Shown: in pieces, positions 12,696-60,658 of the stretch
Position numbering within the stretch: position 1 is the stretch's first letter
Layout: every line of letters starts with the position of its first letter
IMG/VR virus record: IMGVR_UViG_3300024259_000002
Coordinates: 1-64,000 of that record
Source: a virus
Strand: one strand, 5' to 3'
Length of the DNA stretch: 64,000 bases
Made by a program: the position numbers and the translations under genes
Notes under the pieces: generated by a model
Databases searched by the model: none
Told to the model about the DNA's origin: nothing
What the model saw: only the letters and a program-made list of their open reading frames with translations

Positions 12696-12703
12696 GAGTT
12701 GAC

Positions 12704-13717: not shown

Positions 13718-13719
13718 AG

Positions 13720-14301: not shown

Positions 14302-14304
14302 TCA

Positions 14305-15084: not shown

Positions 15085-15101
15085 TTCTTCGGAGGTCCAA
15101 T

Positions 15102-17411: not shown

Positions 17412-17421
17412 GGAGTAACGA

Positions 17422-18072: not shown

Positions 18073-18087
18073 AACCTGCCTTTTCGC

Positions 18088-18116
18088 AAGGAGCCATTTT
18101 TGTGGCTCCTTTTTTG
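18088..18116 (+). terminator. Rho-independent terminator after tail tube paralogue 1
   Basis: An 8-bp perfect stem AGGAGCCA / TGGCTCCT with a six-base loop (TTTTTG), followed by a run of T residues. It separates the sheath/tube genes from the inserted HNH gene. Confidence 0.88.
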
Positions 18117-18126
18117 TGTGTCCATC

Positions 18127-18156
18127 TTGGTATTACCTATGCATTTGTGATATATT
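18127..18156 (+). promoter_or_regulatory. Putative promoter upstream of the HNH gene
   Basis: TTGGTA (18127-18132) and TATATT (18151-18156) with an 18-base spacer; TGA just before the -10 makes it a TGn extended -10 box. It lies between the terminator and the HNH start codon at 18199. Sequence match only. Confidence 0.45.
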
Positions 18157-18198
18157 ATAGGAAGTCAACTTACTTGATTCTCTATAGAAGGATACACA

Positions 18199-19152: not shown

Positions 19153-19180
19153 TCTTCAGCTCACTTTCCCTTCTTGCTTT

Positions 19181-19189
19181 TGCTACAAT
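19181..19189 (+). promoter_or_regulatory. Putative extended -10 promoter after the HNH gene
   Basis: TGC followed by TACAAT (hexamer 19184-19189) gives a TGn extended -10 box about 30 bases before the GTG of tail tube paralogue 2. No good -35 is seen. It would restart transcription of tail genes downstream of the insertion. Confidence 0.4.
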
Positions 19190-19219
19190 ACGACTTGTAC
19201 CATCTCTGTGAGGTAATTA

Positions 19220-20152
19220 GTGGCTTTCTCCAAGCGGTATAGATATTCATACTCTGGCGCTGACGTAAAGTGCTGGGCTTATTTTCCTCACTGGGCTGCG
19301 GGCTACCCAATACAGGAGAATTGGCAAGTCGATCCTCAGAGTATTGGTCAACAGCCAGCTCCAGCTCCGATAGAACTGGAAGCACTGCATACCATATCTG
19401 TCTCTATTCATGAGCCTCGTGGCCCCGCCAGAAGTCTTGGCTTCAGAAACGTGAAGGGCTTTGCTCGTTCTGTTCGGACGATAGCCGGCTCCATCATCAT
19501 GACAATCATAGAGGACCATCCTCTATTGACAATGATGCGTAAAGATCGTGAGTATGCTGAATACCACATGAAGGCCTCAGGCAGAGATAGACGAATGTGG
19601 TCTGCTGACCTCGATATGTTTGGTGTGGGCAGTATGTTCAGTGCGAATGATCTCAGTGTTCGGCTTCCCACCATGCTTGCTCCATTCAATCTGTTTTCCA
19701 GGTATGTCTCTGAGTCTGGAGTATCAGTCGCAGATGACTTGGTAACCGTGGACACGCTGGTTGGGAAAGGGTCTGGCTTCCAGCAGAATGCAGGGATCGC
19801 TCATGGAGGCTGGCTGCTGTCTGGAGTAGAGCTCGTAGGCGAAGGTGTCACGACCTCTGTGAATGACATGGTCACTGAAGTGATGTATCAATTTGTTGCT
19901 CGGGACTACAAATCGTTCACTACTTCAGAAGCCGTAGTCAGCGGAAACATCACTAACTTCTTGTATGACCTGGACACTCCAGTGACAGTAGAAGAGAGTC
20001 TTCATGCGACCCTCATGGAAGCATTGGCGCTGCAAGAAGAACAGTCTTGGGCTCAACAGAGTGTATATGCTACTCCACCCGTAGAAGAGGGGCTGCCGTC
20101 TCGTGAACAGAAATACATACCGACTACCTCTCGTGGTGTGGGGATGATGTAA
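19220..20152 (+). CDS. Tail tube-like protein, paralogue 2 (long form)
   Basis: 310 aa, GTG start with GAGG upstream. The N-terminus has YRYSYSGADVKCWAYFPH and then LEALHTISVSIHEPRGPARS, LGFRNVKGFARSVRTIAGSI and a IEDHPLL end, aligning by eye with the tube-like genes on both sides. It is about 100 residues longer, because of an insertion after the first strand (Pro/Gln-rich, residues about 30-50) and a longer C-terminus (residues about 265-310) that is polar and probably flexible. It may be a tail tube initiator, terminator or baseplate-proximal tube ring; this is inferred. Confidence 0.62.
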   Translation: MAFSKRYRYSYSGADVKCWAYFPHWAAGYPIQENWQVDPQSIGQQPAPAPIELEALHTISVSIHEPRGPARSLGFRNVKGFARSVRTIAGSIIMTIIEDHPLLTMMRKDREYAEYHMKASGRDRRMWSADLDMFGVGSMFSANDLSVRLPTMLAPFNLFSRYVSESGVSVADDLVTVDTLVGKGSGFQQNAGIAHGGWLLSGVELVGEGVTTSVNDMVTEVMYQFVARDYKSFTTSEAVVSGNITNFLYDLDTPVTVEESLHATLMEALALQEEQSWAQQSVYATPPVEEGLPSREQKYIPTTSRGVGMM

Positions 20153-20778
20153 TGAGTATTAAAGAATATGGATATGCCTATTTCTGCGGTGCCAATGCCG
20201 TGGTCTCCGTAAATGACTTCCCGGTTCTGGAAGCAGCGGGCATCTCTTACAACGTCATTGATTCTACTACCCCAGTATATGGGTACTCTTCCAAGCTGTT
20301 TGATGGTGTCGCTGCAGGTCAGGTTATCGTTCAGGGTTCGCTTGTCACGAATTTCGTGCATCATGACTATCTGTTCGAGTGTATAAGCTGGGGGCTATCT
20401 GGAAATCCCACTGTTGGCCAGGCCCAGTATCTTGAAGAACAGGGATTTACTCCTTACGACCCAATTGAGTATCAGAAGCTTACGGAGGATGGCATTCCGC
20501 TTTCTCAAGATGCGATTCGGAATGCCGAAGAACAGTTTTGGACTCTGCCTACTTTGAAGAAGGATACTGGATACGAACAACTCAGAAGCATGTCCCCTCT
20601 GGCTTTCTCGCCAATAAACATTAGCATTTCGTTCGGCAAACGTTATACAATCGATTTGCTTTCGGCTTTCTTCATTGGCAGAGGAAGTACCATCCAGATA
20701 GATGAAAACACAATAATGGAAGAATATCCATTTTTCGCTCGCCAGATGAAGACCAGATATCACAATGAAACGAGGTAG
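20152..20778 (+). CDS. Tail tube-like protein, paralogue 3
   Basis: 208 aa, coupled to the previous gene by TAATG. It begins EYGYAYFCGANAVVSVNDFP and continues with GISYNVIDSTTPVYGYSSK and GQVIVQGSLVTNFVHHDYLF, which is the same order of strands as in the two other tube-like genes. The C-terminal half (ITISFGK-like strand NISISFGKRYTIDLLSAFF) also fits. The third member of the paralogue set could form tube-end or baseplate-junction rings. No catalytic feature is visible. Confidence 0.62.
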   Translation: MSIKEYGYAYFCGANAVVSVNDFPVLEAAGISYNVIDSTTPVYGYSSKLFDGVAAGQVIVQGSLVTNFVHHDYLFECISWGLSGNPTVGQAQYLEEQGFTPYDPIEYQKLTEDGIPLSQDAIRNAEEQFWTLPTLKKDTGYEQLRSMSPLAFSPINISISFGKRYTIDLLSAFFIGRGSTIQIDENTIMEEYPFFARQMKTRYHNETR

Positions 20779-20784
20779 TTATAC

Positions 20785-21546
20785 ATGGCAGTTCGAGTAA
20801 GTAAGGTTGATGACAAAACGACAAGAATTGGTCGGGCTCTTGGAGCCAGAGAGACTCAGCTCCTTGAATCAAAGTCTCCCACAGGCGCCGACATTTGGGA
20901 CAATCTCGATGATCTCAACGAAGAAGTTGAGGAATCACATGGAGCATTCTTGAAAAATAGCAAGCAGGAGAAAACAGTGAGCAGCCCAGTAGCCCGTCCT
21001 ACAGGACGCAGAGTACCCAGAGCAGTGCAAGCCCAGAGAGAGCTTGCAGAAGAGATCCCCACACCAGCAGAGCCTGAAGAAGATTTTGATACCATGCTCA
21101 ATAGTGTTGGCCAAAAGGAAGAGGCTCCTGGTGGAGTCTTCATGAATGAGGATGAGAGGAAGTCCAAGATCCTGGAATACTTGAACAAGCTTCCCAATGC
21201 TCCTTCCGCTGCTCAGATTGCTGAATGGAAAAGAAAGCGTGGTCAGAACGGAGTAAGTGTCATTGTCTTTGATGATGAGAACGTCTTTGTTTATACTTAC
21301 CTTGATAATGCCCAGTGGCGAAAACTACAAGAGAAGATCCAGAAGCTGGCTGAACAGGGTGATAGAGACGCTGAAGATTTGCTCAAGGAGAAGGTCGTGA
21401 AGTTCTGTACCCTGTGGCCAGTGCTTCCAACAGAGTTCTTCTATACTTCTCGGGCCGGCATCCTGGAGAGTCTCTATAACGCCATTTGGACAGAGTCTTA
21501 TTTCTTGCGTCCAGAACAAGTTCAGATGCTGACTGTACAGTTGTAG
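20785..21546 (+). CDS. Candidate tail assembly chaperone (first part)
   Basis: 253 aa with ACGAGG upstream. The first 120 residues are polar and probably disordered. The C-terminal half is helical, with LDNAQWRKLQEKIQKLAEQ and EKVVKFCTLWPVLPTEF, a pattern like tail assembly chaperones that bind tape-measure proteins. Its position just before a very large gene supports this. It ends in TAG at 21544-21546, and the next ORF starts at the very next base in the same frame. Chaperones of this type are often made as two forms by recoding, so readthrough is possible here; that is only an inference. Confidence 0.55.
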   Translation: MAVRVSKVDDKTTRIGRALGARETQLLESKSPTGADIWDNLDDLNEEVEESHGAFLKNSKQEKTVSSPVARPTGRRVPRAVQAQRELAEEIPTPAEPEEDFDTMLNSVGQKEEAPGGVFMNEDERKSKILEYLNKLPNAPSAAQIAEWKRKRGQNGVSVIVFDDENVFVYTYLDNAQWRKLQEKIQKLAEQGDRDAEDLLKEKVVKFCTLWPVLPTEFFYTSRAGILESLYNAIWTESYFLRPEQVQMLTVQL

Positions 21547-21549
21547 ATG
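21544..21549 (+). other. In-frame TAG-ATG junction, possible readthrough site
   Basis: The two candidate chaperone ORFs share one frame and abut as TTG TAG ATG CTC. No Shine-Dalgarno-like purine run is visible in the 25 bases before the second ATG. This could be plain coupling by re-initiation, or suppression of the TAG giving a fused protein of about 486 aa. Confidence 0.35.
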
Positions 21550-22245
21550 CTCGATATAAATGCAATCCTCGAAACTGCAGGGGGCATCTATCAGACCACT
21601 ACTCCGGATGGTCACCAGACGTTCTCCTACAGACTCCTTTCCATGAAGGAGTATAGAGTTTTTGCAGCTTTGAGAGACGGCGGCATATTGCCGCCGCATG
21701 AGCTTTTCACACAAGTATTCGACAGATGTCACTTGGGCAGTTTTGTCCCCGATGCTACCAGGGCGGGAATGATCCCCTCTGTTGGCCAATGGATATTGTG
21801 GCTCTCTGGAGACTGTGAATCACAGACACTCAAACAAGACATTGACCACCTTAGAGAATTGCATCCAGCCGATTCTGTCAATGCATATCAGATGTCTATC
21901 ATAACCTCTGTCTTCCCCTATAAGCTAAAAGAGATAGAGGCCTGGCCTCGTACAGAGTTCCATCGTCAGTTCGTAATTGCCGAGAATATCTTGGCGAAGC
22001 AAAACCCTGACTTCGAGCGATTCAATACTTCTCAGATTCTCTCACCCGAACAGGTCGAGAAGCTCAAGCAGAAGCAGAACCCTGCCAACATAGACTTTGC
22101 CGCCGAGAACATGTCGATTCGGAAGGGTATGGGCGCTGGTAACGTAGAGGATATGGAAACTGAAATGGGACAAAAGAGGGCACGGGTGAAAGCTTTGACT
22201 CGTGCTCAGGCAGCAAAAATGGATAGAATACGCCGAGGAGGTTAG
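21547..22245 (+). CDS. Candidate tail assembly chaperone (second part)
   Basis: 232 aa. It is largely helical, with FSYRLLSMKEYRVFAALRDG, SMEQ-like helices, and FPYKLKEIEAWPRTEFHRQF followed by a VIAENILA helix. The last pattern is found in proteins next to tape-measure genes in contractile-tailed phages. The C-terminus is charged and basic (KKxRxKALTRAQAAKMDRIR-like). The start is taken as ATG 21547 because it directly follows the TAG of the previous gene; there is no clear ribosome site. The end overlaps the strong GAGGAGG ribosome site of the next gene. Confidence 0.55.
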   Translation: MLDINAILETAGGIYQTTTPDGHQTFSYRLLSMKEYRVFAALRDGGILPPHELFTQVFDRCHLGSFVPDATRAGMIPSVGQWILWLSGDCESQTLKQDIDHLRELHPADSVNAYQMSIITSVFPYKLKEIEAWPRTEFHRQFVIAENILAKQNPDFERFNTSQILSPEQVEKLKQKQNPANIDFAAENMSIRKGMGAGNVEDMETEMGQKRARVKALTRAQAAKMDRIRRGG

Positions 22246-22248
22246 TTT

Positions 22249-25200
22249 ATGTCTCCAAAGCGTTGGGATTCCCAAGAGAACGTTCCGTGGAATCCTCCGA
22301 GTCATAGAGCTGGAAAGTTAGCTGTAGCCGCCGCCCTCACAGGCGGCGCTGGTTATGCTGCCATGAACTACCGGTTCTCCAGCGGTACGGCAATGGACTA
22401 TGCCCATGCCGTCATCAGACACACTGGTAACGTCTCACCCTACTCTATCCTAAATACGTTCAGAGGCGCTCAGTGGCTCTCTCCCTGGCTTTCGACAGAA
22501 GCCCAGGGGCTGTCATCGGCGAAGGACCTAAAGCTGTCTGGGAGCCTCCCAGGGGCTCCAGGAGCACGCTATCATCACTGGGCAGAGGAGATGATTGGGG
22601 ACGATGCCTCCAAGGAGTGGATTCGCAAGGTAGCTGGTAGTAAGAGATTCCAGCAAGCGGGCTTGGATGTCCAGCCTTTCGAGATGCTGTATTCGAGGGG
22701 TGGAAAAGATACCACTGGTGCTGGCTCACTCTGGGCAAGAGTTCGGGGCGGTGATGCCTGGCAGAAGCTATCTGGCAGTGTTTCGCTATTCGAGGCTACT
22801 CCTGTAGATCCCAAGATAGCAGCGACCAGAGGTATTCAGCAGGAGGCGATGAATCCCGCCCTTACTGGCATCTGGGATGCCATGGGGATGAGTGAGATCT
22901 GGGGCAAGAAGAGCTACGGCAAGTTCAGTCGTGCTTTCAGGACAGTCACTGAAGAAGGCAAGCCTGGAGGGATGTCCAAGTACGTTCCTATCCCTGCATT
23001 GCTTGGCAAAGACATTGATGGGTGGCAAGGAGTCCATAGGAGATTCTCCACATATGTAGGCGGGCCTCTGGCACAGGGCATGGGCCGTATGAATCGTCTG
23101 CTCGAACAGACGATGGACCAGTTACCGATACTCCGTAACGTGAACTATGCATTCGAGCAACAGTTCAAGACGGGTATGGGAGTTCAGCCAGGCCCTGCTT
23201 CGAAAATGTTTGCTCGCTTCGGAACACGAGCTGCTGCCGTTGGAGCCATCGGCGTTGGTGTCGCTCAAAGCGATTGGATTCGTAGACACTATGGTGTTGG
23301 TGGGCATCTTGCCGCGACGGGTCTTACGACTACGGCAATCACGTATGCTGCTCACAAGATGTTCAACAGAACTCCTCTGACCTTTGGAGTAGCTGCTGCT
23401 TCTGCTGTAGGCCAGTTGATTCTTCCAGGTTTCAGAGAAGGCTTGGTTCCCGGCGCGATAACGACTGCATCCAATCTTAGTATTGGCAAGTCGATGGTCG
23501 GATCTCTTACATTCATGAATACTTATAGGAGAACCCTTGAGGGGTTCTTGCCAGGTGCTTCTGATTGGAAGACTTCTGTACTGGCTGGTCTGGGTGTAGC
23601 TGGTTTCTCTTATATGGGCGGGTCCGCTGCGCTCATCAAGAAGCATGGTTATAGAGGAATACTCCCTGCCTCTCTTGAGAAATTCATCGGAGTGGAGGGT
23701 GCTGACTTTGGCTTGCATGCAGACCCACCGCCAACTATCAGGAGTCTGTATAGAGATGAAGTTCATTCCATAGCTCAAAAGCGTCTCGGAACTGAGTACG
23801 GCTCCATCATGAGTGAGCGTGGATGGGTAAGTTTCAAGAACCGAAAGATTGATCTGGCTCTACAAAGACAGGGCCAGTCGTCTGGCACTTGGCGTGGCCT
23901 CATGGATGAGCTGGATCTCGCTTGGGAGACAGCATCTACCAAGTATGGTCAGTTCTTGAGCGGTGAGCTGGAGGGCTATCCTAACCTCAATAATTCTCTG
24001 CGTTCTCGCATTGCGAAGATCAATGGAGAATTCCAGGGAAGAACGGCTTCCGCGACCTCCAAGCGCTTTCTTGCGAAGAGTGGTACCAAAATCTGGCACT
24101 CATTCTTGGGAATGAACCCAGCTGTGGCCTCTCTCAGAGAAGACCTCGGTGTGCTCGGTGCGAAGAGTCATCTTGGCAGGCTTGGCTTGTTGTTTGGTGC
24201 TGGTGCTCTTGGCTGGAGCATGGTTACTGGTGGTCTGCTTGGGTCAATGGAGGACCCCTCTGAGCTTGCTGATATATATTCTGGTCGTCAACACGTTACT
24301 GTGAAAGAAGGTAGGGCCTGGGAAGCTGGCGGTGCGCCATTCGAAGGAAAGAAGCCTCTATATAGTCGTCCTCACAACTTCGCTTTGTTAATGAGCAGAG
24401 CAAGGCAGAAGGCCGTATGGGGAGATGACGAAGACGAGATTAGTCCAGTAAAGAAGTTTTTGCTAAAGAACTTCTCATATGAGCTTGAGAAGAGAACCTA
24501 TTGGGACAGGCCTCATGTTGTCTCCAGCGCTGCTTTCGAGGGCATCCCCGTAATTGGCGGGCTCCTGGCTTCTACAATTGGGCAGATCGTGAAGCCACCG
24601 AAGCTTATGCATATCTCTGAGTGGGCTCGTCAGGGGCCCAATGGGGAGATCGAGTTTGCGCACAAGCCTGAGTATGGGAACATCTCTTACGAGATGGGAG
24701 GGTTGACGCCTGGTGCTCCGCACTCCCCATACTCCTCTCCGTTCCAAGCTGGTTATGCTGCATACCAGTACAATGAATTGGCAGGTCTGTTTGGCTGGGC
24801 GCTGAATACGGCTACCAAGGCTGTGACCGGCTCAGACATGTTTGCCACCCAGCGACCCGTATTGGCATCTGCTGGGGCTATCTCTTCAGCACAGAAGGCA
24901 TTCTGGGACCTGGAGCTTGCTGGCGCTCTCGGATTATCAGAAGGTATAAGACGCTTTCTTCCAAGGGACCGGAGCGAAGTAGAAGAATATAATCCACTCA
25001 TTAACAACACTCCCTCATGGCTACCTGACAGATTTGCTTACGGTGATCCGTATCGCTCTGTGGACAGGGGACACGTTCGTCTGCCTGGCCCAGGCTATTC
25101 AGCTTTGCACCCTGAGCTGAAAGGCATGGATCCTGAGAACTATCCACGTATCTATCGCTACATGATTCTTGCTGATGTGGCCAATCAATCCAGAGAGTTC

Positions 25201-26376
25201 AAGCAGACACGTCAGTCGATGTATCAAAAAAGGGCTTCTGGACAAACAACTGATTCTGAAAATCGGATGATGGACCTGGTTGATTCTCGTCTTGAGAAGA
25301 TTCAGGCTTATGATACATTCCAATCCGTACATGACAATGCGATTCAAGTACCTGGGTTATCAAGGGTTAGCCAGGGGATGTGGGCTACTGCCCAGAGAGC
25401 TTTCAGAAAGACTGTCGCTCCAGTGGAGTATCTCACTCCGTTCCGTCCTGTTCAGAAACTTCTGTACGACAGAGACAAGATGGAGGCCTATGAGTGGGAA
25501 AGACTATACGGCGGCCCCAATGCTTTCTGGGATGCACCTCAGCGTGACTTCCTCAGACCTGCAATGTATTCTGCGTTGCACAATTTAGGCTGGGATGGTA
25601 AGCCACTATGGAGACAAGAAGTAGATAGAGACAAAGAGTATTTTGACAAGTTGGAATTCGTCAAATGGATGAGAGCTGCAGAGTCGGCCCCGACAGGCCA
25701 AGAGCGGCGGCGAGCGCTTCTCAATGCTCAGAAGACGAAGCATGGTGTGAATCCGCAAGGCAGTCCCCTTTCTATATATGCTTCTCTTCCAGAGTCGGAA
25801 AAGAGATTCTTTGACGCTTTTACTTTCGCGCCTGAAAAAGACCGTGAGCGTATCAAGGAAATGGTTCCTGCTGATCAGGTTCATCTCTATGAAGCCATCT
25901 GGAACAGAGTTGATTCTGGAGATCGGTCTTTGCATCCGGCATCTCCGACCTCTATTGACGAGGCATATCTCAATGCTCGGTTCCATGATTTACAAGGCTA
26001 CTTCCAGCAGAATCCATTGCCGCCAGAAGACTGGTCGGGTTGGAAGAGCAATGTCGAGCTTGATGATATCCAGCTTAGATATGTAGAGAGAATCGGTCGA
26101 GATATCCACGATTACGAGATGTGGGACAGACAGAGTCGGCAGCTCACGAGAAAGCCATACCTGGAAGGCTCCGAAGACTTTTTGTTCGAGGGCCACCCTC
26201 TAACTCGTGACTCCATTGCTTCTCAAATCCATGACATGGGTAGACGTCAATCTGGCCCAGCTCCACAGCTGTCTGTTCATTCAGTTCCCGGCAGCTTGTT
26301 TGATACACAGGCCAGGTTCTACCATGACGACAATAGAGAAGACGTGATAGGGAGGTTGTTGAATGCCCTCGAATAA
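22249..26376 (+). CDS. Giant inner-tail protein, candidate tape measure
   Basis: 1375 aa with GAGGAGG before the ATG. It comes straight after the candidate chaperones, where the tape-measure gene is expected. Several hydrophobic, Gly/Ala-rich stretches are visible (residues about 22-43, 327-345, 355-393, 444-463 and 644-668); these are like membrane-active segments of tape-measure or ejected proteins. The rest is soluble, Trp/Tyr/Pro-rich and not repetitive, which is unusual for a classic helical tape measure. It overlaps the next giant gene by 14 bases. The function is inferred from place and size; another possibility is an injected accessory protein. Confidence 0.55.
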   Translation: MSPKRWDSQENVPWNPPSHRAGKLAVAAALTGGAGYAAMNYRFSSGTAMDYAHAVIRHTGNVSPYSILNTFRGAQWLSPWLSTEAQGLSSAKDLKLSGSLPGAPGARYHHWAEEMIGDDASKEWIRKVAGSKRFQQAGLDVQPFEMLYSRGGKDTTGAGSLWARVRGGDAWQKLSGSVSLFEATPVDPKIAATRGIQQEAMNPALTGIWDAMGMSEIWGKKSYGKFSRAFRTVTEEGKPGGMSKYVPIPALLGKDIDGWQGVHRRFSTYVGGPLAQGMGRMNRLLEQTMDQLPILRNVNYAFEQQFKTGMGVQPGPASKMFARFGTRAAAVGAIGVGVAQSDWIRRHYGVGGHLAATGLTTTAITYAAHKMFNRTPLTFGVAAASAVGQLILPGFREGLVPGAITTASNLSIGKSMVGSLTFMNTYRRTLEGFLPGASDWKTSVLAGLGVAGFSYMGGSAALIKKHGYRGILPASLEKFIGVEGADFGLHADPPPTIRSLYRDEVHSIAQKRLGTEYGSIMSERGWVSFKNRKIDLALQRQGQSSGTWRGLMDELDLAWETASTKYGQFLSGELEGYPNLNNSLRSRIAKINGEFQGRTASATSKRFLAKSGTKIWHSFLGMNPAVASLREDLGVLGAKSHLGRLGLLFGAGALGWSMVTGGLLGSMEDPSELADIYSGRQHVTVKEGRAWEAGGAPFEGKKPLYSRPHNFALLMSRARQKAVWGDDEDEISPVKKFLLKNFSYELEKRTYWDRPHVVSSAAFEGIPVIGGLLASTIGQIVKPPKLMHISEWARQGPNGEIEFAHKPEYGNISYEMGGLTPGAPHSPYSSPFQAGYAAYQYNELAGLFGWALNTATKAVTGSDMFATQRPVLASAGAISSAQKAFWDLELAGALGLSEGIRRFLPRDRSEVEEYNPLINNTPSWLPDRFAYGDPYRSVDRGHVRLPGPGYSALHPELKGMDPENYPRIYRYMILADVANQSREFKQTRQSMYQKRASGQTTDSENRMMDLVDSRLEKIQAYDTFQSVHDNAIQVPGLSRVSQGMWATAQRAFRKTVAPVEYLTPFRPVQKLLYDRDKMEAYEWERLYGGPNAFWDAPQRDFLRPAMYSALHNLGWDGKPLWRQEVDRDKEYFDKLEFVKWMRAAESAPTGQERRRALLNAQKTKHGVNPQGSPLSIYASLPESEKRFFDAFTFAPEKDRERIKEMVPADQVHLYEAIWNRVDSGDRSLHPASPTSIDEAYLNARFHDLQGYFQQNPLPPEDWSGWKSNVELDDIQLRYVERIGRDIHDYEMWDRQSRQLTRKPYLEGSEDFLFEGHPLTRDSIASQIHDMGRRQSGPAPQLSVHSVPGSLFDTQARFYHDDNREDVIGRLLNALE

Positions 26377-29300
26377 CTTTGCATACCCGAGAGACACTCA
26401 GTCAGATGTCTACACAGCCGCTTCATTTTTGAAGAGGGGTGCCAGCATTGTGCCTGCTGCAGTAGGTATCGGTATTGGTGTGAGAGCAGTACTGAGCAAT
26501 ACTCCAGAAGCCCTCCAGGGGCTTCCTACCAATCACTTAGGAGATGCTGGAGCTCATGTCGGCGGTGCTGTCAGAAAGATGCATCAGTACAAGACGGACA
26601 GAGGAAACAAAATAGCCGACGAGATTATCGGAAATCTTAGAGAAGGTCTGAGAGACAAGGGGAATCTGAGGCAAGCTCTGCAGTCTTCCCACGAAGAACT
26701 AAATGCGAAGATATCAGCCATCGTTGCAGCCCTGGATGAGCCCAGTATTGCTGGGGACGGCGGAGAGCTTTTACAAAGGAGGAAGGAAGAGCTTCTGTCA
26801 CTCATGAGGGAAGAGGGTGATGCAATAGATCAGAAGGCAGCCCAAATGATTGAGGACACTGTCAAGGATATCTATTCAACTGCAACGGCAGATGGTAAGA
26901 GAAGATTTGGTGAGCATCTGACAAAGTACGAACGACTCCGTAGTCAGCTCGCTCCTCCAGATTTTGTTCACAAGTCTGGTCAATCGTTCTCGACAATAAG
27001 TGATACAGCCAGTCTCAGCAGCAGAGCCCGTGGTCAGCTCGATTCACTGTCTGGTATGCTCAGAGGCCAAGGTCGTATTGACGTAGTCAAGCACAGTTCT
27101 GGTTCGACTTACGCTCGTGTATACGCCTCGGATGCTGCGAATGCTCGACATATCATGGACTATCCTCTTCAGTATAGGACCATGGGTGGGGTTCCAATTA
27201 TTCATACAGGTGAGGGGCTTACGACTCCTCGTGCTGCAGATCTGCTTTACACTTCTGCAAGAAATGTGCAAGAAGCCTTTGGCGGCACAGCCAGGGGGGC
27301 AACTGTCACCCGTCAAATGGTACAGGAGAACTTACTGGGTACTGGAAAAGCCTATGATTACAGAGGCTTGCTCAGAGGAGAACTGAGAAGTCGCTTAGGA
27401 GCGGCAAGGGGGAATTTGTCAGCTGTTGAGAACATGAATGAGTTCTCTCGTCAGTATCTGGCCAACATCGACAAGGCTGCTTTCGGCCGAGGAGCTTTTG
27501 CCCAACACCTACAAGCCCAGACCGTAAGGACTCATTCCAGAATGACAATCACTGGCTATGAGCAGGTCTCCAAGTCTACAAGGCAGTCTCAAAGGGCAAT
27601 GCTGATGGCAGCCTCTCCTGAAGCTGAGTTGGCTCCTCATGGCTTTGGAGGAGCACGACCTTTCTTCGATCCTGCCGTTGGTCATGAGTTCACTGTGGAC
27701 CCTACTGGTAGAATGTCTGCGCAGGTTGGTATCAGGCAATACAAAGGCACTGGAGCAGCGATTACTCGTATCCGGAATCCCTTCCAGACTCGTGCGATGT
27801 ATCCAGCCACCATGCGTATCGATCAGGCTCTGAAGAGAACTGAGTCATTCGTCCCCGGAAACAATGTTCCTTCCACTCTTGGTAGCTCTGGTACTTATAG
27901 GCATTTCGGGCAAAACATCGAATGGGCTGATGACATGGTTCGCGGAGGGCTCAACAAGGTTGCTGTGCTGACTCCGGCGAACATGGCGATAGGTCTCGGA
28001 GAAGGAGAGTTCTACACTGGCGGACGATTCGTCGTCGAGTCTCCGATCACGAAGACTGTCTTTGATCCAGGTTCCATGAAGACCCCATCATCGAAGCTCC
28101 TCAATAGACTTGTCAGCGAGGGACAGATCAGCCTTACAAGCGGAGCAGATATCAATCAGTTCTTTGGCGAGACAAAGGGGTTTCTTGGGCTTGGCGGTTC
28201 TGGAGAAACCTATCTCACAAGGAAGCAGGGCCTAATTGGATTGAATCTGACTGCTACGCCGACACAGATTGGAGACAGAAAGGTGTGGGAGATTGTTGGT
28301 AGTGGACGCTATCTCGAAGACCCAAAGATGTTTGGGATGCATGCGAAGGCTACCTCTCGGCGTATTGGCGCAGCAGGCTTCGGCCGTGTAAGCGGAATGG
28401 TTGGTGCTGATATACTTGGAGAGACAGGTGCACTCGGACTGGGCCGAAGTGATCTCATTGTCGGCCCTGGCAAGATGTTCAAGAAGGGGGCAGGAGGGCT
28501 CATTGATCAGATGGCCGGAGCCATGGGACTAATGAAGAAGTTCGCTGGTCCCCAAGCTGCTTATCAGGCAGCCACCCAGGGCATGTATGATCCAGCTACT
28601 CAGATGTTCAACAAGTCTACTCTCAATGCGCTGGCTTCTGGCAACACGGGTGTGGTCCTGATGAAGACTGCTGAAAACGTTGCGAGACAGATGGCTCCTA
28701 TGCAGGGGCAGATATCACCGAATGTGATGGGCCGAGTATTTGGGAGTCTTCATAGCTACGGTGGTAAGCATGGTGTCAGTCAAGACGCCCTGATGGGTAT
28801 GCTTGGGCAACACTTCTCTGCTGATTACATGGCCAAGCTTGGTCCTGCTGTTCAGCAAGGTATCGGCATAACTCCTACGACTCTGTTCTCTGGGCCGACT
28901 CTCGGTTCTTGGGGCTCCACCAGAGCCTCCATGGAGCCTCGCTTTCTCGGCTTGATGCACAAGACGCTAACTGACAGCTTAGGTATGGACAGAAGCTCTG
29001 CCAATGACATCCTCGCTGGATTCATGGCAAGGAAACCAGGTGCTGCAGATGCATTGAATGCTGCGAAATCTCTCACCAGAATGCAGGCTACCATCTCTGG
29101 TGCAAGATCGATGCTGGATGAAGACTTGCTTCAGTCCATGAGGAGGGTCGGAGCTAAAGACTTTGCAATGGCTGGCGGCTCAGATGCGGCCATGGAGAAA
29201 TTCTTGAGAAGTGTTGGCAGTGATTTTGTACTGGATTTCAGTGGCAATGAGTTTGTTGAGCGAGCCGCTCGCAAAGCTTTCCACAATAATACTTCGTTAT

Positions 29301-31552
29301 TCATTCCTGGATCCGAAGCACTCAATCAGATGAACAAGGCCCTCATTAAAGGCCCCTCTGGCAATGTAGAAATCAAACCAGAATTCATCAGGAGAATGGA
29401 ACGGCTCAGTGGTGTAGTCAGAGACCTCATGGGTCTCCAGGCAGGAGCCTCTGCGGATCAGATCTCCAGTCATGTCAGCAATCTCACTGGCTGGGCTCAT
29501 GGAATGGATCGACTATACGGACAGACTGTTCACAACCTCGGACGTGGGAAGCTTGCTGGCTCGGCTTATGTCAGAGCACAGTCTCTCGTGTTTGGTGAGA
29601 ATGGCTCTGCTGACTTCAACATGGAACAGCTGAAGAGAATGCAACAGCAATACACTGGCGCCAAGGGCCATGCTGTCTTCGTTGACTCTCAAGCGTTTCT
29701 GTCCAAGATGAGAGACTCCATATCAGCAGCTGAGAAGGAACTGCTTGGTGCTGGTGAGTTCACTGGGGGAAGAGCCAGAGGCGGAGCTGTCCGTAAGGCT
29801 GGCCTTGAGTATCGTAACTTCTTCCTCGGCTCAGAGAGAGGGATGAGAATGGGCTCAATGAGTCTCATTCAGCGGCACCCGACGTTGACGAATCCTCACA
29901 TTGCTCCAACTCAAGTCTATCGTGTCGCTTCCGAGACTGGAACGACTGATGACATATTCAGGAAGTTCGTGCAGACCAGTGCCGGCAAGAAGGCCCTCGC
30001 TGAAGTACAAGGCAAGGCTGGACAGGGGATCTCTCTTGGAAGTTTCAGTGACATGGCGAAAGTCTGGCAGACGAGGAATAGAGGAGCACGAATCAAGATC
30101 AACAAGTTCTTCCAGTCCATGGCTTCACACGTTACTGATTTCATGACCGAAGAAGGCGGTGGTAAGGTATTCTTCCCGGAGTTTGACGTCAACATTCACT
30201 ATGCCGGCGGGAAACTCGAAGGTGTCAACTTCTCTCCTTGGGCTGCAGCTGGCGGTGACCACGATGCAGACATGGCAGGAATGATCTCTGTATTTTCCAA
30301 GAAAGGCCGGGAGCTCACAGGCTCTCCAGCAGCAAGAGAAAAACTTGCTCGTTCTGTCCACAGACAGACCGCCGAGGGCCTGGTCATGAGGAGTCAGATT
30401 AGTGAGGGTATTGCTCGATATGCTGGGGGACTAAGCTCTACTGCAGCCCTTTCGCCATGGGAGCAAGGGCTTGAGTCTGTCTTGAAAGAACAGGCTGGTA
30501 AGGATATCGGTAAACTTTCTACGACTCTGGGCGCTGTTCGGCAAGGGATCTGGGCTGAAGCCAAGCCAGGCCAAGAACTCATGGCAAGACAAGCAGTCGC
30601 GTTTCTTGGTGGCGCCGAGGAAGCTACACAGATTGCCTCCAAGCACTTGAGTCGTGCTCTTGATGTTGGTAGCGTCTTGAAGGCCACACTCGATCACGCA
30701 ATGCAAACTGGAGAGATTGACAAGTTTGAAAGTCTTGTCAGGAACGTGCTACTCAAAGGCAGTCCTATTCTCGGAGAAGGAATTAGTATTGAAGGTGTCA
30801 CTGCTGGGAAGGCTGGCGATATCTCTGCTCGCATGGCAGCAACAGCTGAAAGGAATCTGTCTGGCCAAGCCATTGGGTTCGGCGAAGAGTCCATTGATTT
30901 GATTCGTCGTGCTGCTGTTAGAGCTCAGCAAGAGGGATACAAGGCATCTGTCACGGCGAGGGGTATCGAGTCAGTGGTCGGTAGGCATTCTCCGCAGGCT
31001 CAAGTTGCTGCTGACGCTTTGAGAAATGACTGGAGGCTCATGGCAGCAATGGGTCCGCAGGCGGGGATAGAAGCTGTTGGAGAATTCGCGAGGCAGGTAG
31101 GGAATAGGATCAGTACCTTCAGTAGAGCCATGGACAAGCGTTTCCTCGGGCCTGCTATAGTTGGTATTGGTGCTGCAGTGGGTCTTGGGGCAATGGTCGG
31201 GAGTCCAGGTTACTCTGCTGAGCCATTGATTGCCCCGGGAGAGGTGGTCACTCCGAGAGTCAAAGATGCCGTTGCAGCTGGTAGCCTATTTGATCAAAGT
31301 GTCAAGGCTCCGATGGCAGAGAACTTTGCTTCAAGTGATCGGCTCAACATTACGGATCGTCCAATTAATCCAGGTACTGCATACTTTGAAAGACGAAACG
31401 CTTATCAAATCAGAGGTGGATTGAGGAATCGTTCTGCAATTGGTGAAGTCAGTAATTTCATTAGTGGTATCGGTGGCTCTGCTTCGATTAGAATCAATGA
31501 TACTCGCAGGCCATTGACTCCGAATTACATTGACCGAATCACTTCAGAGTAA
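26363..31552 (+). CDS. Giant protein with two-barrel RNA polymerase-like motifs, candidate virion RNA polymerase
   Basis: 1729 aa with GGGAGG upstream. Three parts resemble double-psi beta-barrel RNA polymerases. Residues 546-560 read GEGEFYTGGRFVVES, like the DexGxLxxGqvFV element of RNAi-type polymerases, and Lys655 to Lys662 read KMFGMHAK, like the lysine motif of bacterial beta subunits. Residues 1168-1175 read LIQRHPTL, like the beta-prime RAPTLHR element. Residues 1269-1306 run from VFFP to GGDHDADMAGM, with Asp1299, Asp1301 and Asp1303 in the DxDxD metal-binding arrangement. N- and C-terminal hydrophobic segments (28-45, 1594-1615) suggest membrane passage. YonO and crAss-like virion polymerases are known single-chain relatives. 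The remainder, rich in Gly/Met/Ala, is unassigned; an ordinary tape-measure role is the alternative. Confidence 0.6.
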   Translation: MPSNNFAYPRDTQSDVYTAASFLKRGASIVPAAVGIGIGVRAVLSNTPEALQGLPTNHLGDAGAHVGGAVRKMHQYKTDRGNKIADEIIGNLREGLRDKGNLRQALQSSHEELNAKISAIVAALDEPSIAGDGGELLQRRKEELLSLMREEGDAIDQKAAQMIEDTVKDIYSTATADGKRRFGEHLTKYERLRSQLAPPDFVHKSGQSFSTISDTASLSSRARGQLDSLSGMLRGQGRIDVVKHSSGSTYARVYASDAANARHIMDYPLQYRTMGGVPIIHTGEGLTTPRAADLLYTSARNVQEAFGGTARGATVTRQMVQENLLGTGKAYDYRGLLRGELRSRLGAARGNLSAVENMNEFSRQYLANIDKAAFGRGAFAQHLQAQTVRTHSRMTITGYEQVSKSTRQSQRAMLMAASPEAELAPHGFGGARPFFDPAVGHEFTVDPTGRMSAQVGIRQYKGTGAAITRIRNPFQTRAMYPATMRIDQALKRTESFVPGNNVPSTLGSSGTYRHFGQNIEWADDMVRGGLNKVAVLTPANMAIGLGEGEFYTGGRFVVESPITKTVFDPGSMKTPSSKLLNRLVSEGQISLTSGADINQFFGETKGFLGLGGSGETYLTRKQGLIGLNLTATPTQIGDRKVWEIVGSGRYLEDPKMFGMHAKATSRRIGAAGFGRVSGMVGADILGETGALGLGRSDLIVGPGKMFKKGAGGLIDQMAGAMGLMKKFAGPQAAYQAATQGMYDPATQMFNKSTLNALASGNTGVVLMKTAENVARQMAPMQGQISPNVMGRVFGSLHSYGGKHGVSQDALMGMLGQHFSADYMAKLGPAVQQGIGITPTTLFSGPTLGSWGSTRASMEPRFLGLMHKTLTDSLGMDRSSANDILAGFMARKPGAADALNAAKSLTRMQATISGARSMLDEDLLQSMRRVGAKDFAMAGGSDAAMEKFLRSVGSDFVLDFSGNEFVERAARKAFHNNTSLFIPGSEALNQMNKALIKGPSGNVEIKPEFIRRMERLSGVVRDLMGLQAGASADQISSHVSNLTGWAHGMDRLYGQTVHNLGRGKLAGSAYVRAQSLVFGENGSADFNMEQLKRMQQQYTGAKGHAVFVDSQAFLSKMRDSISAAEKELLGAGEFTGGRARGGAVRKAGLEYRNFFLGSERGMRMGSMSLIQRHPTLTNPHIAPTQVYRVASETGTTDDIFRKFVQTSAGKKALAEVQGKAGQGISLGSFSDMAKVWQTRNRGARIKINKFFQSMASHVTDFMTEEGGGKVFFPEFDVNIHYAGGKLEGVNFSPWAAAGGDHDADMAGMISVFSKKGRELTGSPAAREKLARSVHRQTAEGLVMRSQISEGIARYAGGLSSTAALSPWEQGLESVLKEQAGKDIGKLSTTLGAVRQGIWAEAKPGQELMARQAVAFLGGAEEATQIASKHLSRALDVGSVLKATLDHAMQTGEIDKFESLVRNVLLKGSPILGEGISIEGVTAGKAGDISARMAATAERNLSGQAIGFGEESIDLIRRAAVRAQQEGYKASVTARGIESVVGRHSPQAQVAADALRNDWRLMAAMGPQAGIEAVGEFARQVGNRISTFSRAMDKRFLGPAIVGIGAAVGLGAMVGSPGYSAEPLIAPGEVVTPRVKDAVAAGSLFDQSVKAPMAENFASSDRLNITDRPINPGTAYFERRNAYQIRGGLRNRSAIGEVSNFISGIGGSASIRINDTRRPLTPNYIDRITSE

Positions 31553-31555
31553 TAT

Positions 31556-34500
31556 ATGACGCTTCCAATCGCCGGGGCAGTAGTTCTTCCTCGGGACATT
31601 TTTCGTGTTAACGATATAAATCTTTCCATTCCTCCCAGTCAGATCTCTGTCAGGAAGGAAGACCTCATTTGGTCATGGAAGACCCTGCGCACCAAGGCAT
31701 CTACCAAGGTACCGAGTGGGCATGGAATGGTTCAGGCGTCTCTGTCAATCTATTTCACTCCAGACCTCTTGCTGGACTTGATAAGGCTGATAGTTCAGTT
31801 TAGGCATTCTCCGTTCTGCTGGGTCGAGAATGAGTACCTGAGACAATCAATATGTCCTCACTGGCCCCTGTATCAGTCAATGGCTTTCACAATGTCGTCG
31901 ATCCATGTAGCCCCCTTTCGGGGGCATCCTGGGACTTTCATTTGTGAGATAGACCTCCGCTGGTTCAATTACTTCCCATATGCTTTCAACTATCTGTTCA
32001 GAAGAGAATGGCTCACTGAGCCTCTGAAGAATCAGAGCAACAATGTTCAGTTGTCCATTCCGACATATGGCAGAGTCGAAGGAATCGACCTTCCTGTCAC
32101 TCAGACAATCATCACGAGTCCTCAAGATCTCGCGAACGCAATAGAAGAGTATGATGTAATCTCTGGTGCAAAGAGAGATATTGTAGCAGGCTCCACAGTC
32201 CAAGACATGGAAGCACGGCATGGCGGCGTTGTCTTTGACAACATGCCTCTCCCGAATAGAATGGCCAAGTCAGAGGCTGTGCAAGACCCCGCTGCGTCCA
32301 ACATCTATGTCAGGTATATCAATTCTCTCATGCAAAAGAGATTGTGGGAAGGATTCGGTATTGATGCCGCCGGCGACATCATTGATGCTGTGGATGAAAG
32401 GTATTGGAGCAGATTCACTGCTGGTGAAGAACAGCCTTCGAGGACCTTCCGAATCGTCCGCCGCTTGAATGATATCTCACAGCTTCCTGCTGGAGTTGCT
32501 GATGAATGGATAACCAAGATTCTTGCAACCACGAAGTACACTACATTCACTTGGCACCAGTATCTCTCTGTAGAGTTGCCTCCAAAACTACAGAAAGCAA
32601 TGAAGGAGTTCCACACCAAGATAATTGAAGGAGAAGTGAAGAAGTTCCAATGGATGAGAGAAGAGACCCAGAAGACTCTGGATGAATGGGCCAGTAGGAA
32701 ATACGGAGCATCGTATTCCTCTGGTGAGATTATTCCTGGAGCAAAGCCTGGAAACGAAGATTCTCTGAACCACTTGCCTTGGTATCCGCCCTGTAAGGCA
32801 GCTCCGGTAACATCAGTATTTACAATCACTCCTCCGTATAGGCTTCACCCAAAGCTCAACAAGTATCTTCCTCACTATGGACTTGATGTGGGTATCGCCG
32901 AAGGCACTCCGCTGTACGCTACCAATGACGGTATTCTGTATAAGGAGGAATCCGAGGGCGGTGGACTTGGAGTCTACATCGTTCACAATCCACTTGATAT
33001 GCGGACCAGATATTTGCACATGTCTGGTTATGCTGATGAAGTGGAATCTGGAGAGACCGTGTCACGCGGGCAGTTGATTGGCTATTCGGGCAATACTGGC
33101 CGTTCCAGCGGCCCACATCTTCACTTCGAGATGAAGAAGATTTCGACTGGGCAGTTGCAAGACCCATTCATTCTGCTAACGAACCAGAGCTTCTGGAATA
33201 GCAATACTGATTATCCTGAGGATGTCGAGGCTTCTGACTTCGGTACGGACATAGATACTGATCTGGATATAGATTCTGACGTAGACACCGATGCCCTCGG
33301 AAATGATGTTCGAGATCCTGATGGCGACAGTCCCAATGTACCGAGTAACTCAGCAGACATAGAGAAAGGTCTTGGAGACGGCGGGGCTATCGGTCTGACA
33401 GATGAAGAGAAGCAGCTCGTAGCTGATACTTACGCTGAACTCATTGATGAGGGCTGGGTCTATTACGAGAAAGATCAGTCGGTAACCAATGTCTGGCAGC
33501 GAGCTGTATCAATAATGGTTGATACGGACTGGCTGCTTGAAAACAAGGAAGCTACTGGAGAGTTACTGTTCAAGGAAGGGGCTATTATTTCTTCCATGGC
33601 TGGTTCTCTGCAGCATGTCATTGCGAGCATCCCAATTCTCGGCCATGAGTTCCCGACTCATCAGCATCTGGGATCAATTGAGCCTAACTACATGATTGAG
33701 TTTGCTCTCCTGGATGACGGAGAGAAGAATACTGGGATCGGTACGATTGGTAAGATGTTAGAGACCATGAGAGCTTCTCTCCAGGAGAACGCTCGCACAT
33801 TCAGAATCATACCTGACTGCTGGACTCTTGCTACAGACCATTTCATCACTCGTCTCTTCGGTAGTTATTCGGAGACAGACATTCTGTTGGATGACGAAAA
33901 TGGGCAAACAGAAATCAAGAAACGCTCAGCTATCTCTGCGTCTCAGACAGAGACGAAGCAGGGTAACCCCGGCTTGTCTGCGATGGTTTTTGAATTCTCG
34001 GAGACCAATCCTTACGAGACTGAGTTCATAGTAGCTGAGCCCAGCCTTGTAGACGATATAGAAGACAGAAGAAAAGAAGTACTCCATGCCTTGTATGACA
34101 TGTCACTATCGGATCCGGGCAAGACTGCAGCTATCCTCGCAATGGGGGAGATGCTCAGTGTAGACGAAATCGATTCATTCAGGCAGAATGATGAGTGGAA
34201 AGCAGCTAATGGAAGAGTGGGTGGAAAAGATCAGTCAGTAGTCACTTTCGACAATTTCTCTGTGGCCGCTGACCCGATGCTGCTGACAGCCGGAGCTGTA
34301 GGTCTGCCTCCATCGTCAACTGACCAGGTAGATCCTGTGCAAGCACTTATCGCCCAAGCTGCTGGGATCGGCACAATCGGTTATCAGGAACACCTGGACC
34401 TGATAGACATAGATACTGCTTTGAGGAATTCTCCTGAGCTTGATCCTCTGTATGCAGAGGGAGCTGGTTTCGTTTCCGAGACACGGAACGGTGACTTCTA

Positions 34501-37500
34501 TTTCAAAGCAGGAGAATATCCATCTACTACAGCTTATGATGCCACTGAGTTCTATAGACTCTATCCAGAGCTGGAAGGTGTGGATCTCGACGAATTGGCT
34601 GGGCTTTACAGTATCCTTCGGTCGCTCCTCAGAGCTACTCGCAGAATGCTGGTTGATGAGGGTGTCCCGAATGCTCATGGCGCTGATGAAGTCTGGAAGA
34701 GACTCTATGAGATGCCAGACAAAGCTGCGGTCAAGCCTCAGATGTATTCCCAGTTCGTTTACTACCTCGCTCAATTGCTTGGAGGAGATACTGGAATTGA
34801 ACGTCTTCATCTTGCAGGTATTGGAGACCGATATATCGATCTCGATGCGATCTCACAAGAAGACAAAGAAGAGCTCAGAGAAAGAGAGCTATTGAACTCA
34901 ATGAAGAGTGGTATCTGGCAGCTCTGCTTTGACGCTCCAACTCAGTTGTTCTTGCACACTCTGGCTGCTTATTCATTCTTCAATGATGCTGGTATTCAGG
35001 TGCTGTCTGGTACTGATATTGGAGACATCCAGTGGGGGCAGCTGAACAAGAATCTCAAGCTCTCCTATCAGAGTGAGAAGGCCCAGGATGCTGTTGACGA
35101 GTATGTATGGCTGCTTCCAATAGACGCCTCAGTTCCTGAACAACTTGCCAATTCGTTCCCCTTGTTGGGAGATGTGGTTTCTCGTGGCGGCGATCTAAGT
35201 CAGTCCTTCGGACTGCATGCGTCTTTCGACAAGTTCCTTCTCTCAAGCTGGCTGATCCATGCAAGGACTTCGGCATTCTGGCCAGAGATAATGAAAGCCA
35301 ACAGAGGGAACATCCAGGCATACCAGACGTTGGTTGGAGCTGCAGAACGAGCCTTCCCAGATGACCCAAAAGTTCAAGCTGCTATCGAGCAGGCTGGCAA
35401 AGAGGCCAGCAGTGTGAAATGGACTGCTGATGCCCCTGGGGAAAGCAAAACACAAGAGATCTCAGAAGCCTACAAGGCTGCCGCCGAAGCTGTCATCGAA
35501 GCACTCCCTCAGTCTCACATCAGGTTCCCCTGCAGCACTTCCATAGAGTCCAACAAAATATCTTGGTTGAAGAAGCTGTACCAGACTCTTGCCGACAGAA
35601 TCTTGGAAAGTCCTCGACTTCTCGCATTGTTCGGGCTTGAAGATCTCCTGAACTTTGATGCTGGTAGTCAACATCGTGGATCTGAATGCTACCCCGATCT
35701 TGACCTGCCCAAGCATCCTTACTATCCAGAAAACTTCAATGCCACCTCTCCTGATTTCTACATGTGGAACATGTACGAAGATGGCCCTGGTGCTCTAACA
35801 CAGGAGATGTTGCAGGTTGTAAGTGAGCAAGCTACTCAAGCAATTCAGGGCCCTTACGAGCATTTGAAAAGCATGATGGGGAACGGCATCAAGCCGTTTG
35901 CAGAGAGAGATGAATGGCTGACTGTATATGGTGATGACGGCTCTTCTGAACTTACGCCAAGACTTTCAGCATTACGGGCTTCATGGGAGGGATCTGATGA
36001 GAACCTCGTCAAGATGGGGTCTGAATACATCAGTATGCGAGAGATGCAGGCAGCTTTCCCAGACCCTGAAGCTCTGGAAGAATGGAGATCGAGGGGCGAC
36101 GACGGGCTGAGGGAGCTTGGGAACAAGGTCAAGTCTTTGAAGGGCACTGCCCAGAGTGTAGAGGCTGTTGATACAGCTATCGGAATGCCTGGAATCAACG
36201 ACCCAAAAAGTGATGAATACACGCAGGCCTATTCATTGGAGAACCTGTACAAGACCCTGGTTGATTTGCAACAGGATATCAGGCCTCTCTCTCCTCTCCT
36301 CTCTGCTTTTGATGGTAATCCGCAGTACACTCAGATTCCAAGAGCTGACCTCGACACTTACAAGGACCTCGTAAAGAAGGTCCAAGAGACAAAGACATTC
36401 TTTGGTTCACGAGCTGGTTATCTCGGCGACCGCATCACCAAGGACACAGCCAAGCTGATCACGGATTCTACTACAGACACTCGTGTAGCAGCGTTAGATG
36501 CTTACACCCATGCTTTCGACCCAGCTTCTCTTTTGAGGCTTGCTCAGGATTCAGCTGCTGACATTCTCTCAGAGAAGATGACTCTACGTAGAGCATATCC
36601 TACTTTCAAGCTGATGTTTGTTGAAGAGGACGAGTTCGAAAGTCGCTGGCTGAACTTTGATGACTTCCACTCTTACAACTCTGTTAAGGAATTTACCATT
36701 GTAAGAAGTCGTGACATGGCTGCCTCTACGGCTCATATCACTCTTCAGAATGTATCTGGAACTCTGGATGGCACCAAGCGAAACGTAATCACTGATTTGG
36801 ACTATTTCCAAGAAGCAGAGATAGAGCAGATTGAAGGTGACGCCAAGTATACGATGATGGATGCTCGATCAGAGTCTGCACCAAGAATTGATTCATCTCA
36901 AGACCAGCCGTTTGGAGCCCTGGTCCTTAGGCCAGGGCTGAATGTCCAACTCCGAGTAGGATTCAGCAATGATCCTGGGATGCTCGAAGTGATGCTCTCT
37001 GGCCGAGTCACAGATGTAACCTGGTCTACTAATGGAGACATGGCCGAGATAGTGGTTCAGTCTTTCGGGACCGAGCTCGTACAGGCCCTCAAGGGCAGAG
37101 ATGAGTTCTATGACCAAAACGGCGAGCCTAACGCCGAACAGGAGATTTACGAGACTACCCATAAACTGCTGGGGTCAATGATGCTGAGTCCTGAACTCAG
37201 ACATTTCGGTAGATGGGAATGGGGCCAGCTTTATCAGTACGGCGAATCCAAAGATTCGCGTCTTGATTTCTATGACTATGCGAGGGATTCTTTCCTGAAC
37301 AAGTTCAAGGTGATGACTGGCGTTTCCAGATGGATTGCTCGTCACCCTGTGCTTACATGTGTGTCTGCTATTGGCTTGGCAGCGTTGGCGACCTTTACTC
37401 CGATCAGGGGTGGGGCCGGCTTCCTATCAAAAGGGTTAGCTGGATTCGGAAGGGTCGGCAGGTGGATCGGCCTTGGAAGAGCTGCTGCAACTGTTTCTGA

Positions 37501-60656: not shown

Positions 60657-60658
60657 GT

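Follow-up and report, generated by a model that had tools for sequence, protein, structure and literature searches.

Can a large tail protein of a contractile-tailed phage be an RNA polymerase that is carried in the virion? This question was raised by P0001, the product of a gene located between tail genes and the baseplate hub gene in the window, by which we mean the whole 64,000-nucleotide stretch of DNA that was analysed (part of a 132,519-base virus record, IMGVR_UViG_3300024259_000002). An earlier note, made from the sequence alone, had proposed a single-chain two-barrel RNA polymerase that is injected for early genes. Following our computational analysis, the whole reading of P0001 as a single-chain two-barrel polymerase, borne in the tail, injected and used for early transcription, was judged likely (probability about 0.78), with activity, packaging, injection and early promoters being inferred. 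Taken part by part, identity of P0001 as a diverged two-barrel RNA polymerase is very likely, and a role as virion polymerase is probable. Conservation of six catalytic-type residues and of the position among tail genes, as well as the presence of a second polymerase gene in the genome, was shown by computation.

P0001 is encoded in the tail locus of a contractile-tailed phage lineage

The terminase and hub of the window phage had matches in Moorella phage MTATph1, Acinetobacter phage ME3 and Bacillus phage KLEB27-3, and a tail sheath gene was present, indicating a contractile tail. In the ME3 record, the terminase, portal, capsid, sheath, chaperonin and hub, as well as the protein preceding the candidate, are noted as homologous to Bacillus phage 0305phi8-36. 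The window phage is a member of this 0305phi8-36/ME3 contractile-tailed lineage, with which it shares the gene order of chaperonin genes, orf145-type protein, candidate gene and hub. A two-gene form of the tail chaperonin has been described for the lineage (PMC2147016); two genes of the window stand in its place (Table 1), and a PHROG search with them gave no match. P0001 occupies the position of ME3 gp036 and of 0305phi8-36 orf146, which was assigned as the tape measure mainly by its length (PMC2147016), while the KLEB27-3 orthologue, gp034, is annotated as a structural protein. The placement between tail genes and hub claimed in the earlier note thus held, and it is conserved throughout the lineage.

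Elsewhere in the window, three genes were noted by eye. A Cys-rich HNH-endonuclease-like gene, possibly a homing endonuclease, lies amid the tail structural genes (18199-19152), and the end of the structural operon encodes a two-domain glycosyltransferase-like protein (60644-62722) and a response-regulator receiver-like protein (63103-63678).

Table 1 Features of the P0001 locus and of the second polymerase gene (window positions unless G000 is given)
Feature	Position	Strand	Remark
Two genes in place of the lineage's two-gene tail chaperonin	20785..22245	+	By position only
1375-aa tail protein, homologue of ME3 'virion structural protein' gp035 (0305phi8-36 orf145 family)	22249..26376	+	Marker for relatives
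P0001, candidate single-chain two-barrel virion RNA polymerase	26363..31552	+	1729 aa, ATG start
Hydrophobic segment, residues ~27-46, possible membrane or tail-tube helix	26441..26500	+	Sequence reading, no predictor
KMFGMHAK, residues 655-662; K655 and K662 are candidate barrel B (beta-like) catalytic lysines	28325..28348	+	
GKLAGS, residues 1062-1067, possible counterpart of beta-prime GKRVDYSGRS at barrel A start	29546..29563	+	
LIQRHPTL, residues 1168-1175, R-x-P-T motif (beta-prime RAPTL)	29864..29887	+	
Lineage-specific ~85-aa insertion within barrel A, residues ~1180-1264	29900..30154	+	L026-L036 without insertion
VFFP strand, residues 1269-1272, counterpart of beta-prime GKAIQLHP	30167..30178	+	Alignment with L025/L024/L023; hhalign
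DHDAD, residues 1299-1303, putative Mg-binding Asp triad	30257..30271	+	Inferred from homology and conservation
Hydrophobic segment, residues ~1601-1620, possible membrane helix	31163..31222	+	Sequence reading; homologues have same layout
C-terminal ~40 aa with '(v)nvnixDxRR' pattern (SIRINDTRRP), proposed virion anchor	31430..31549	+	
2811-aa baseplate hub with M23 peptidase domain	31556..39991	+	
RNAi/YonO-type RNA polymerase, 1087 aa, locus L056, right arm	G000 118909-122172	-	PF05183 E 2.9e-14

Relatives carry a diverged gene with the same motifs at the same locus

Direct searches with P0001 against Pfam, PHROGs, the PDB, phage records and in two viral scans gave no match. Because the protein diverges too fast for direct search, the upstream gene was used as a marker: relatives were collected with upstream-gene profiles (alignments A1, A2 and A8), and the gene downstream was then read. 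The same locus was found in dozens of viral contigs, and in most complete loci the downstream gene carries an R-x-P motif followed by DxDxD. Among non-redundant genes at the locus (<90% identical to one another), 64 of 69 have DxDxD in the C-terminal half, and these 64 fall into 13 groups that BLAST cannot join. The total of 69 is approximate, as motif-less genes entered as representatives and most genes cut by a contig end, L039 and MTATph1 were excluded. The motif reads GGDHDQDQ in ME3 gp036 and RYPTI...KADYDGD in KLEB27-3 gp034. Nearest to the window protein by blastp were the homologues in L025 (E 1e-73), L024 (E 2e-29) and L023 (E 2e-19).

The long distance between RHPTL and DHDAD is explained by an insertion at this site in the clade formed by the window, L025, L024 and L023; the insertion is far longer in L023 (~750 aa) and L024 (~1170 aa) than in the window (~85 aa). 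An insertion had been called for in the earlier note, and this held; close relatives have the same or a much larger one and distant relatives have none. The L024 homologue (12216-21362, 3049 aa) carries its ~1170-aa insert in barrel A, between R-N-P and GDFDAD, and the insert contains a VDSDGD of its own.

A few relatives have lost the polymerase; the motif is missing in L090, L100, the L104-type subclade, L039 and MTATph1. In L104, L105, L106, L108, L109, L112, L113, L139 and L140, a different protein without DxDxD follows the orf145-type gene, and in some members of the L104-type subclade it is encoded by two separate genes (~770 and ~815 aa). In MTATph1 (L002 8904-16260), the gene at the candidate position is split by an IS21-like istA/istB pair; the N-terminal fragment has a DnaQ-like exonuclease region (Pfam 5e-5, PHROG 5e-11), the C-terminal fragment has the anchor motif, and the DxDxD part is absent. 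Regions are common to this MTATph1 gene (L002 8904-12833), KLEB27-3 gp034 (L003 8118-15422) and L022, and the exonuclease-like stretch shared with MTATph1 lies at the N terminus of gp034. Fusion of an exonuclease to the virion polymerase in homologues such as gp034 is a possibility.

A hydrophobic stretch near the N terminus was also seen in several homologues. C-terminal ends resembling '(v)nvnixDxRR' were found in L006, L010, L022, L025, L029 and L100, and in weaker form in KLEB27-3 gp034. For 0305phi8-36 gp146, alignment with the relative BtI1 is limited to the C-terminal 60 aa (PMC2147016).

Catalytic-type residues are conserved in the P0001 family

KMFGMHAK, LIQRHPTL, VFFP and DHDAD were all found exactly where the earlier note had placed them, and its comparison with the E. 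coli enzyme was also correct: the lysines of beta KMAGRHGNK (K1065/K1073) are 8 apart versus 7 in P0001, and beta-prime has RAPT at 425 and DFDGD at 460. K655 is ~640 residues from the P0001 Asp triad. A beta-prime-like element, GKLAGS, had been overlooked. Its pattern G[KR]xxGS is kept in homologues, an SG motif is present in A9 (an alignment of 20 sequences from a Firmicute-like sublineage), and E. coli beta-prime has SGRS at 350; the alignment offers only a suggestion that GKLAGS stands in place of beta-prime '(D)YSGRS'. A point against the polymerase reading is that the core of P0001 is DHDAD and not D-x-DGD.

According to the earlier note, lack of conservation of the Asp triad or the lysines in homologues would refute its proposal. 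When this was examined, these residues, together with R1171, proved to be the most conserved columns of the window family. In A7, a window-led alignment of 21 rows with a mean column identity of 18%, the only columns conserved at ≥90% were K655, K662, R1171, D1299, D1301 and D1303. K413, R823 and the three Asp were invariant in A6 (17 sequences), with the second Lys (K419) and the Pro nearly so, and the R, the P and the three Asp were invariant in A9. In 14 sequences of the Firmicute-like sublineage, an invariant Lys also precedes DxDxD by ~500 residues, and in most of them a second basic residue stands about seven positions past this Lys. The rows of A6 and A7 had been cut relative to the motifs, and the lysine motif had been picked by eye; conservation was weaker in alignments of uncut proteins than in the cut A7, with the Asp in 10-13/13 and K655 in 8-9/13.

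A single DxDxD is weak evidence, and motif counts in 25 representative homologues were compared with shuffled sequences. In all 25, DxDxD falls within the C-terminal half (shuffled mean 3.1, max 7); 22 have R/K-x-P 15-75 residues upstream (shuffled mean 0.6, max 4), and 16 have Kx[FHYW][GSN]x2-4K 380-720 residues upstream (shuffled mean 0.3, max 2). Although gene position defined the representatives, the presence of DxDxD in most of them was known before this count. The DxDxD figure therefore involves some circularity, which affects the R-x-P and lysine counts to a smaller degree.

Profile and fold comparisons link barrel A to the RNA polymerase largest subunit

When the A9 profile was run against all PDB sequences, the top matches were RNA polymerase largest subunits, with RPA190 the best (E 2e-5), followed by the 7s00/7s01 beta-prime (E 4e-4), phiKZ PHIKZ055/056.1 (7ogp, E 6e-4) and, at lower ranks, Rpb1, A' and beta-prime; just 2 of 51 matches were unrelated. 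The A6 and A7 profiles found no polymerase in the PDB by hmmsearch, and A9 alone found some. Pfam RNA_pol_Rpb1_2 was matched by four of the 20 A9 members (best E 7e-5) and by KLEB27-3, with the scores shown lying under the curated cut-off. In hhalign, A9 aligned with A7 (96.6%, E 6e-10), passing over the insertion and keeping RHPTL and DHDAD in register; it also aligned with E. coli beta-prime, where RYPT fell on RAPT and DxDGD on DFDGD. A5, from the window clade, was likewise joined to A4, from the L029 clade (99.1%, E 6e-19, 597 columns).

The AlphaFold2 model of P0001 was poor (pLDDT 57), with no significant fold match and only noise among its PDB matches, which means that the structure-prediction check suggested in the earlier note could not be judged on P0001 itself. 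Since neither its own sequence nor its model matches anything, the fold of P0001 was inferred via homologues. In the L029 model, the barrel-A region has pLDDT mostly 73-92, and every one of the 50 listed PDB matches was a beta-prime chain of bacterial origin (lowest E 8e-4; probability reaching 1.00). In a viral library, the L029 model matched, among others, many viral RNA polymerase subunits and two ME3 proteins, the stronger of which (E 1e-9) we take to be gp036, with accession proof lacking.

Another ME3 protein was noted in L072 (16457-18877, minus strand; ME3 224456-226876). It has 798 aa from the first Met, no Pfam match and no DxDxD, and by eye only it resembles the barrel-B region of RNA polymerase beta. 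Judging by length, it could be the second ME3 match in the viral library (E 1e-3).

These results showed, by computation via an intermediate profile and the fold of a homologue, that barrel A is homologous to the RNA polymerase largest subunit, and the two-barrel identity put forward in the earlier note was supported to that extent. The profile matches do not cover barrel B. Strands were predicted near the Lys motif with low confidence in both the L029 and P0001 models, and support for the second barrel consists only of the two lysines and this low-confidence fold. No family match of P0001 to PF05183 was obtained. Homology to the N4/T7-like palm fold found no support in Pfam or PHROG matches either, the protein showing two-barrel motifs and, as inferred via homologues, a beta-prime fold instead.

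A second polymerase is encoded in the same genome

The right arm of the genome encodes an RNAi/YonO-type polymerase (Table 1) with the motif RAPGLQP...GDDDGDG, the sole PF05183 match of this genome. It had no tblastn match in the phage collection, and comparison of the P0001 family with it as a single sequence by hhalign stayed at decoy level. PF05183 was not found in any of 20 relatives, so the virion/non-virion pair proposed here has no demonstrated generality beyond this genome. No promoter-like motif shared upstream of genes in this genome was clearly above shuffles, and no early-promoter motif was obtained. The words 'injected' and 'early genes' of the earlier note remain inference, without proteomics, promoter or activity evidence.

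Comparison with known phage polymerases

The kind of enzyme proposed, a tail-borne two-barrel polymerase, is already known from P23-45, which represents one group of long-tailed Thermus phages. Its gp96, in which a virion RNA polymerase and the tape measure protein are fused (PMC10770324), is, as proposed for P0001, a two-barrel sequence in a giant tail protein at the tape-measure position, and its R-N-P...DFDGD resembles the R-x-P...DxDxD of the P0001 family. Both phages have a second, non-virion polymerase in the genome (gp64 in P23-45; PMC10770324), and both gp96 and P0001 are absent from some relatives (PMC10770324 for P23-45). Another common trait is that the sequence as a whole can be recognised only around the motifs. 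However, the P23-45 polymerase occupies the N-terminal portion of a chain of 5002 aa whereas P0001 has 1729 aa with DHDAD near residue 1300, and the window phage, unlike P23-45, has a contractile tail. The hhalign comparison of the P0001 family with gp96 and gp64 as single sequences was at decoy level, the best gp96 local alignment covering the DFDGD region; the validated gp64 and gp96 have no RNA polymerase Pfam match either.

RNAi/YonO-type polymerases (PF05183), including 0305phi8-36 orf99 (PMC2147016, PMC7824862), share a DxDxD core with P0001 and have both barrels in one chain, as is proposed for P0001, whereas P0001 is a separate family encoded in the tail operon. The phiKZ/AR9-type jumbo phage polymerases are related by the barrel-A profile matches to PHIKZ055/056.1 and the 7s00/7s01 beta-prime chains, and a vRNAP/nvRNAP division of labour as in jumbo phages (PMC13282480) is proposed for the window phage; these enzymes consist of several split beta/beta-prime-like subunits, in contrast to the one chain from the tail operon here. 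The N4 virion RNA polymerase is a giant single chain carried in the virion that acts at the start of infection (PMC12633501), as is proposed for P0001, but the palm fold of N4 enzymes is T7-like (PMC7824862) and has no relation to double-psi barrels, while P0001 has two-barrel motifs. In crAss-like phages, the virion polymerases occur as fusions with large proteins (PMC10770324). The crAss-like phi14:2 gp66 is a single-chain two-barrel phage polymerase, as proposed for P0001, and has elements in common with QDE-1 (PMC10770324); P0001 had no match to gp66 in the PDB search.

Discussion

We propose that P0001 is a double-psi beta-barrel DNA-dependent RNA polymerase that forms part of the tail protein encoded between the orf145-type gene and the hub gene. 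Barrel B would provide K655 and K662, and barrel A would provide D1299, D1301 and D1303 for Mg2+. The protein would be assembled in the tail tube, in a tape-measure-like location, with the conserved C-terminal piece and the hydrophobic segments as proposed anchors; it would exit the particle with the DNA and transcribe the first genes. By analogy with the succession of gp96 by gp64 in P23-45 (PMC10770324), the right-arm RNAi/YonO-type polymerase may then take over. A bolder reading, possible but no more than that, is that in this lineage, itself ancient and widespread, the tape-measure or pilot protein is built around an RNA polymerase. In that case, the hydrophobic segments near both ends may keep P0001 in the ejection channel, where it would transcribe the incoming DNA and so help pull the genome into the cell. 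The divergence of 0305phi8-36 and BtI1 has been estimated at 2.0-2.5 billion years ago (PMC2147016).

Four other explanations were considered. The first is that P0001 descends from an RNA polymerase and is now a purely structural tape-measure/pilot protein, with catalysis lost or marginal. In its favour, the gene has the position of the assigned tape measure of 0305phi8-36 (PMC2147016), the sequence drifts extremely fast, and the domain has been lost or replaced in some relatives. On the other hand, change has affected almost everything except precisely the catalytic-type K, K, R, D, D, D, whereas loss of catalysis would predict the reverse, and we regard this explanation as unlikely.

The second is that P0001 is an active RNA polymerase that is not packaged, being made late with the tail genes and acting in the infected cell. 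There is no virion proteomics for this phage, and 0305phi8-36 and P23-45 have non-virion polymerases as well (PMC2147016, PMC10770324). Against it, the place in the tail operon is strictly conserved, the KLEB27-3 orthologue carries a structural annotation, the separate right-arm polymerase already fits such a role, and a polymerase made late would come too late for the start of infection. This explanation, too, is improbable.

The third, a two-barrel enzyme of another activity, such as a PolD-like DNA polymerase or a primase working during or after injection, is very unlikely. Archaeal PolD also has double-psi barrels (PMC10770324), and the MTATph1 gene and KLEB27-3 gp034 have the DnaQ-like exonuclease region in common; but both profile and fold point to the RNA polymerase largest subunit, the R-x-P-T motif is present, and no PolD was among the listed matches. 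Lastly, chance motifs in a fast-evolving tail protein, for which only the lack of a significant direct match of the single P0001 sequence can be cited, are all but excluded by the profile and fold matches, and chance occurrence of the motifs was ruled out by the shuffle controls and the count of 64/69 homologous genes.

The reading of P0001 as a virion RNA polymerase thus remains preferred. For the 0305phi8-36 lineage, the papers found report only a YonO-like polymerase, with orf146 described as a plain tape measure (PMC2147016, PMC7824862). A search of the open-access literature (without subscription journals or preprints), judged mostly by title and abstract, found no description of a virion RNA polymerase in this lineage. 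The gene, so far unrecognised, is present at the corresponding locus in dozens of related viruses. If the proposal is true, a virion polymerase would be a conserved feature of a large and very diverse group of contractile-tailed phages and would explain how transcription starts in this lineage. Its phages would then be candidates for growth without the host polymerase at the start of infection, and a deep branch would be added to the RNA polymerase family tree.
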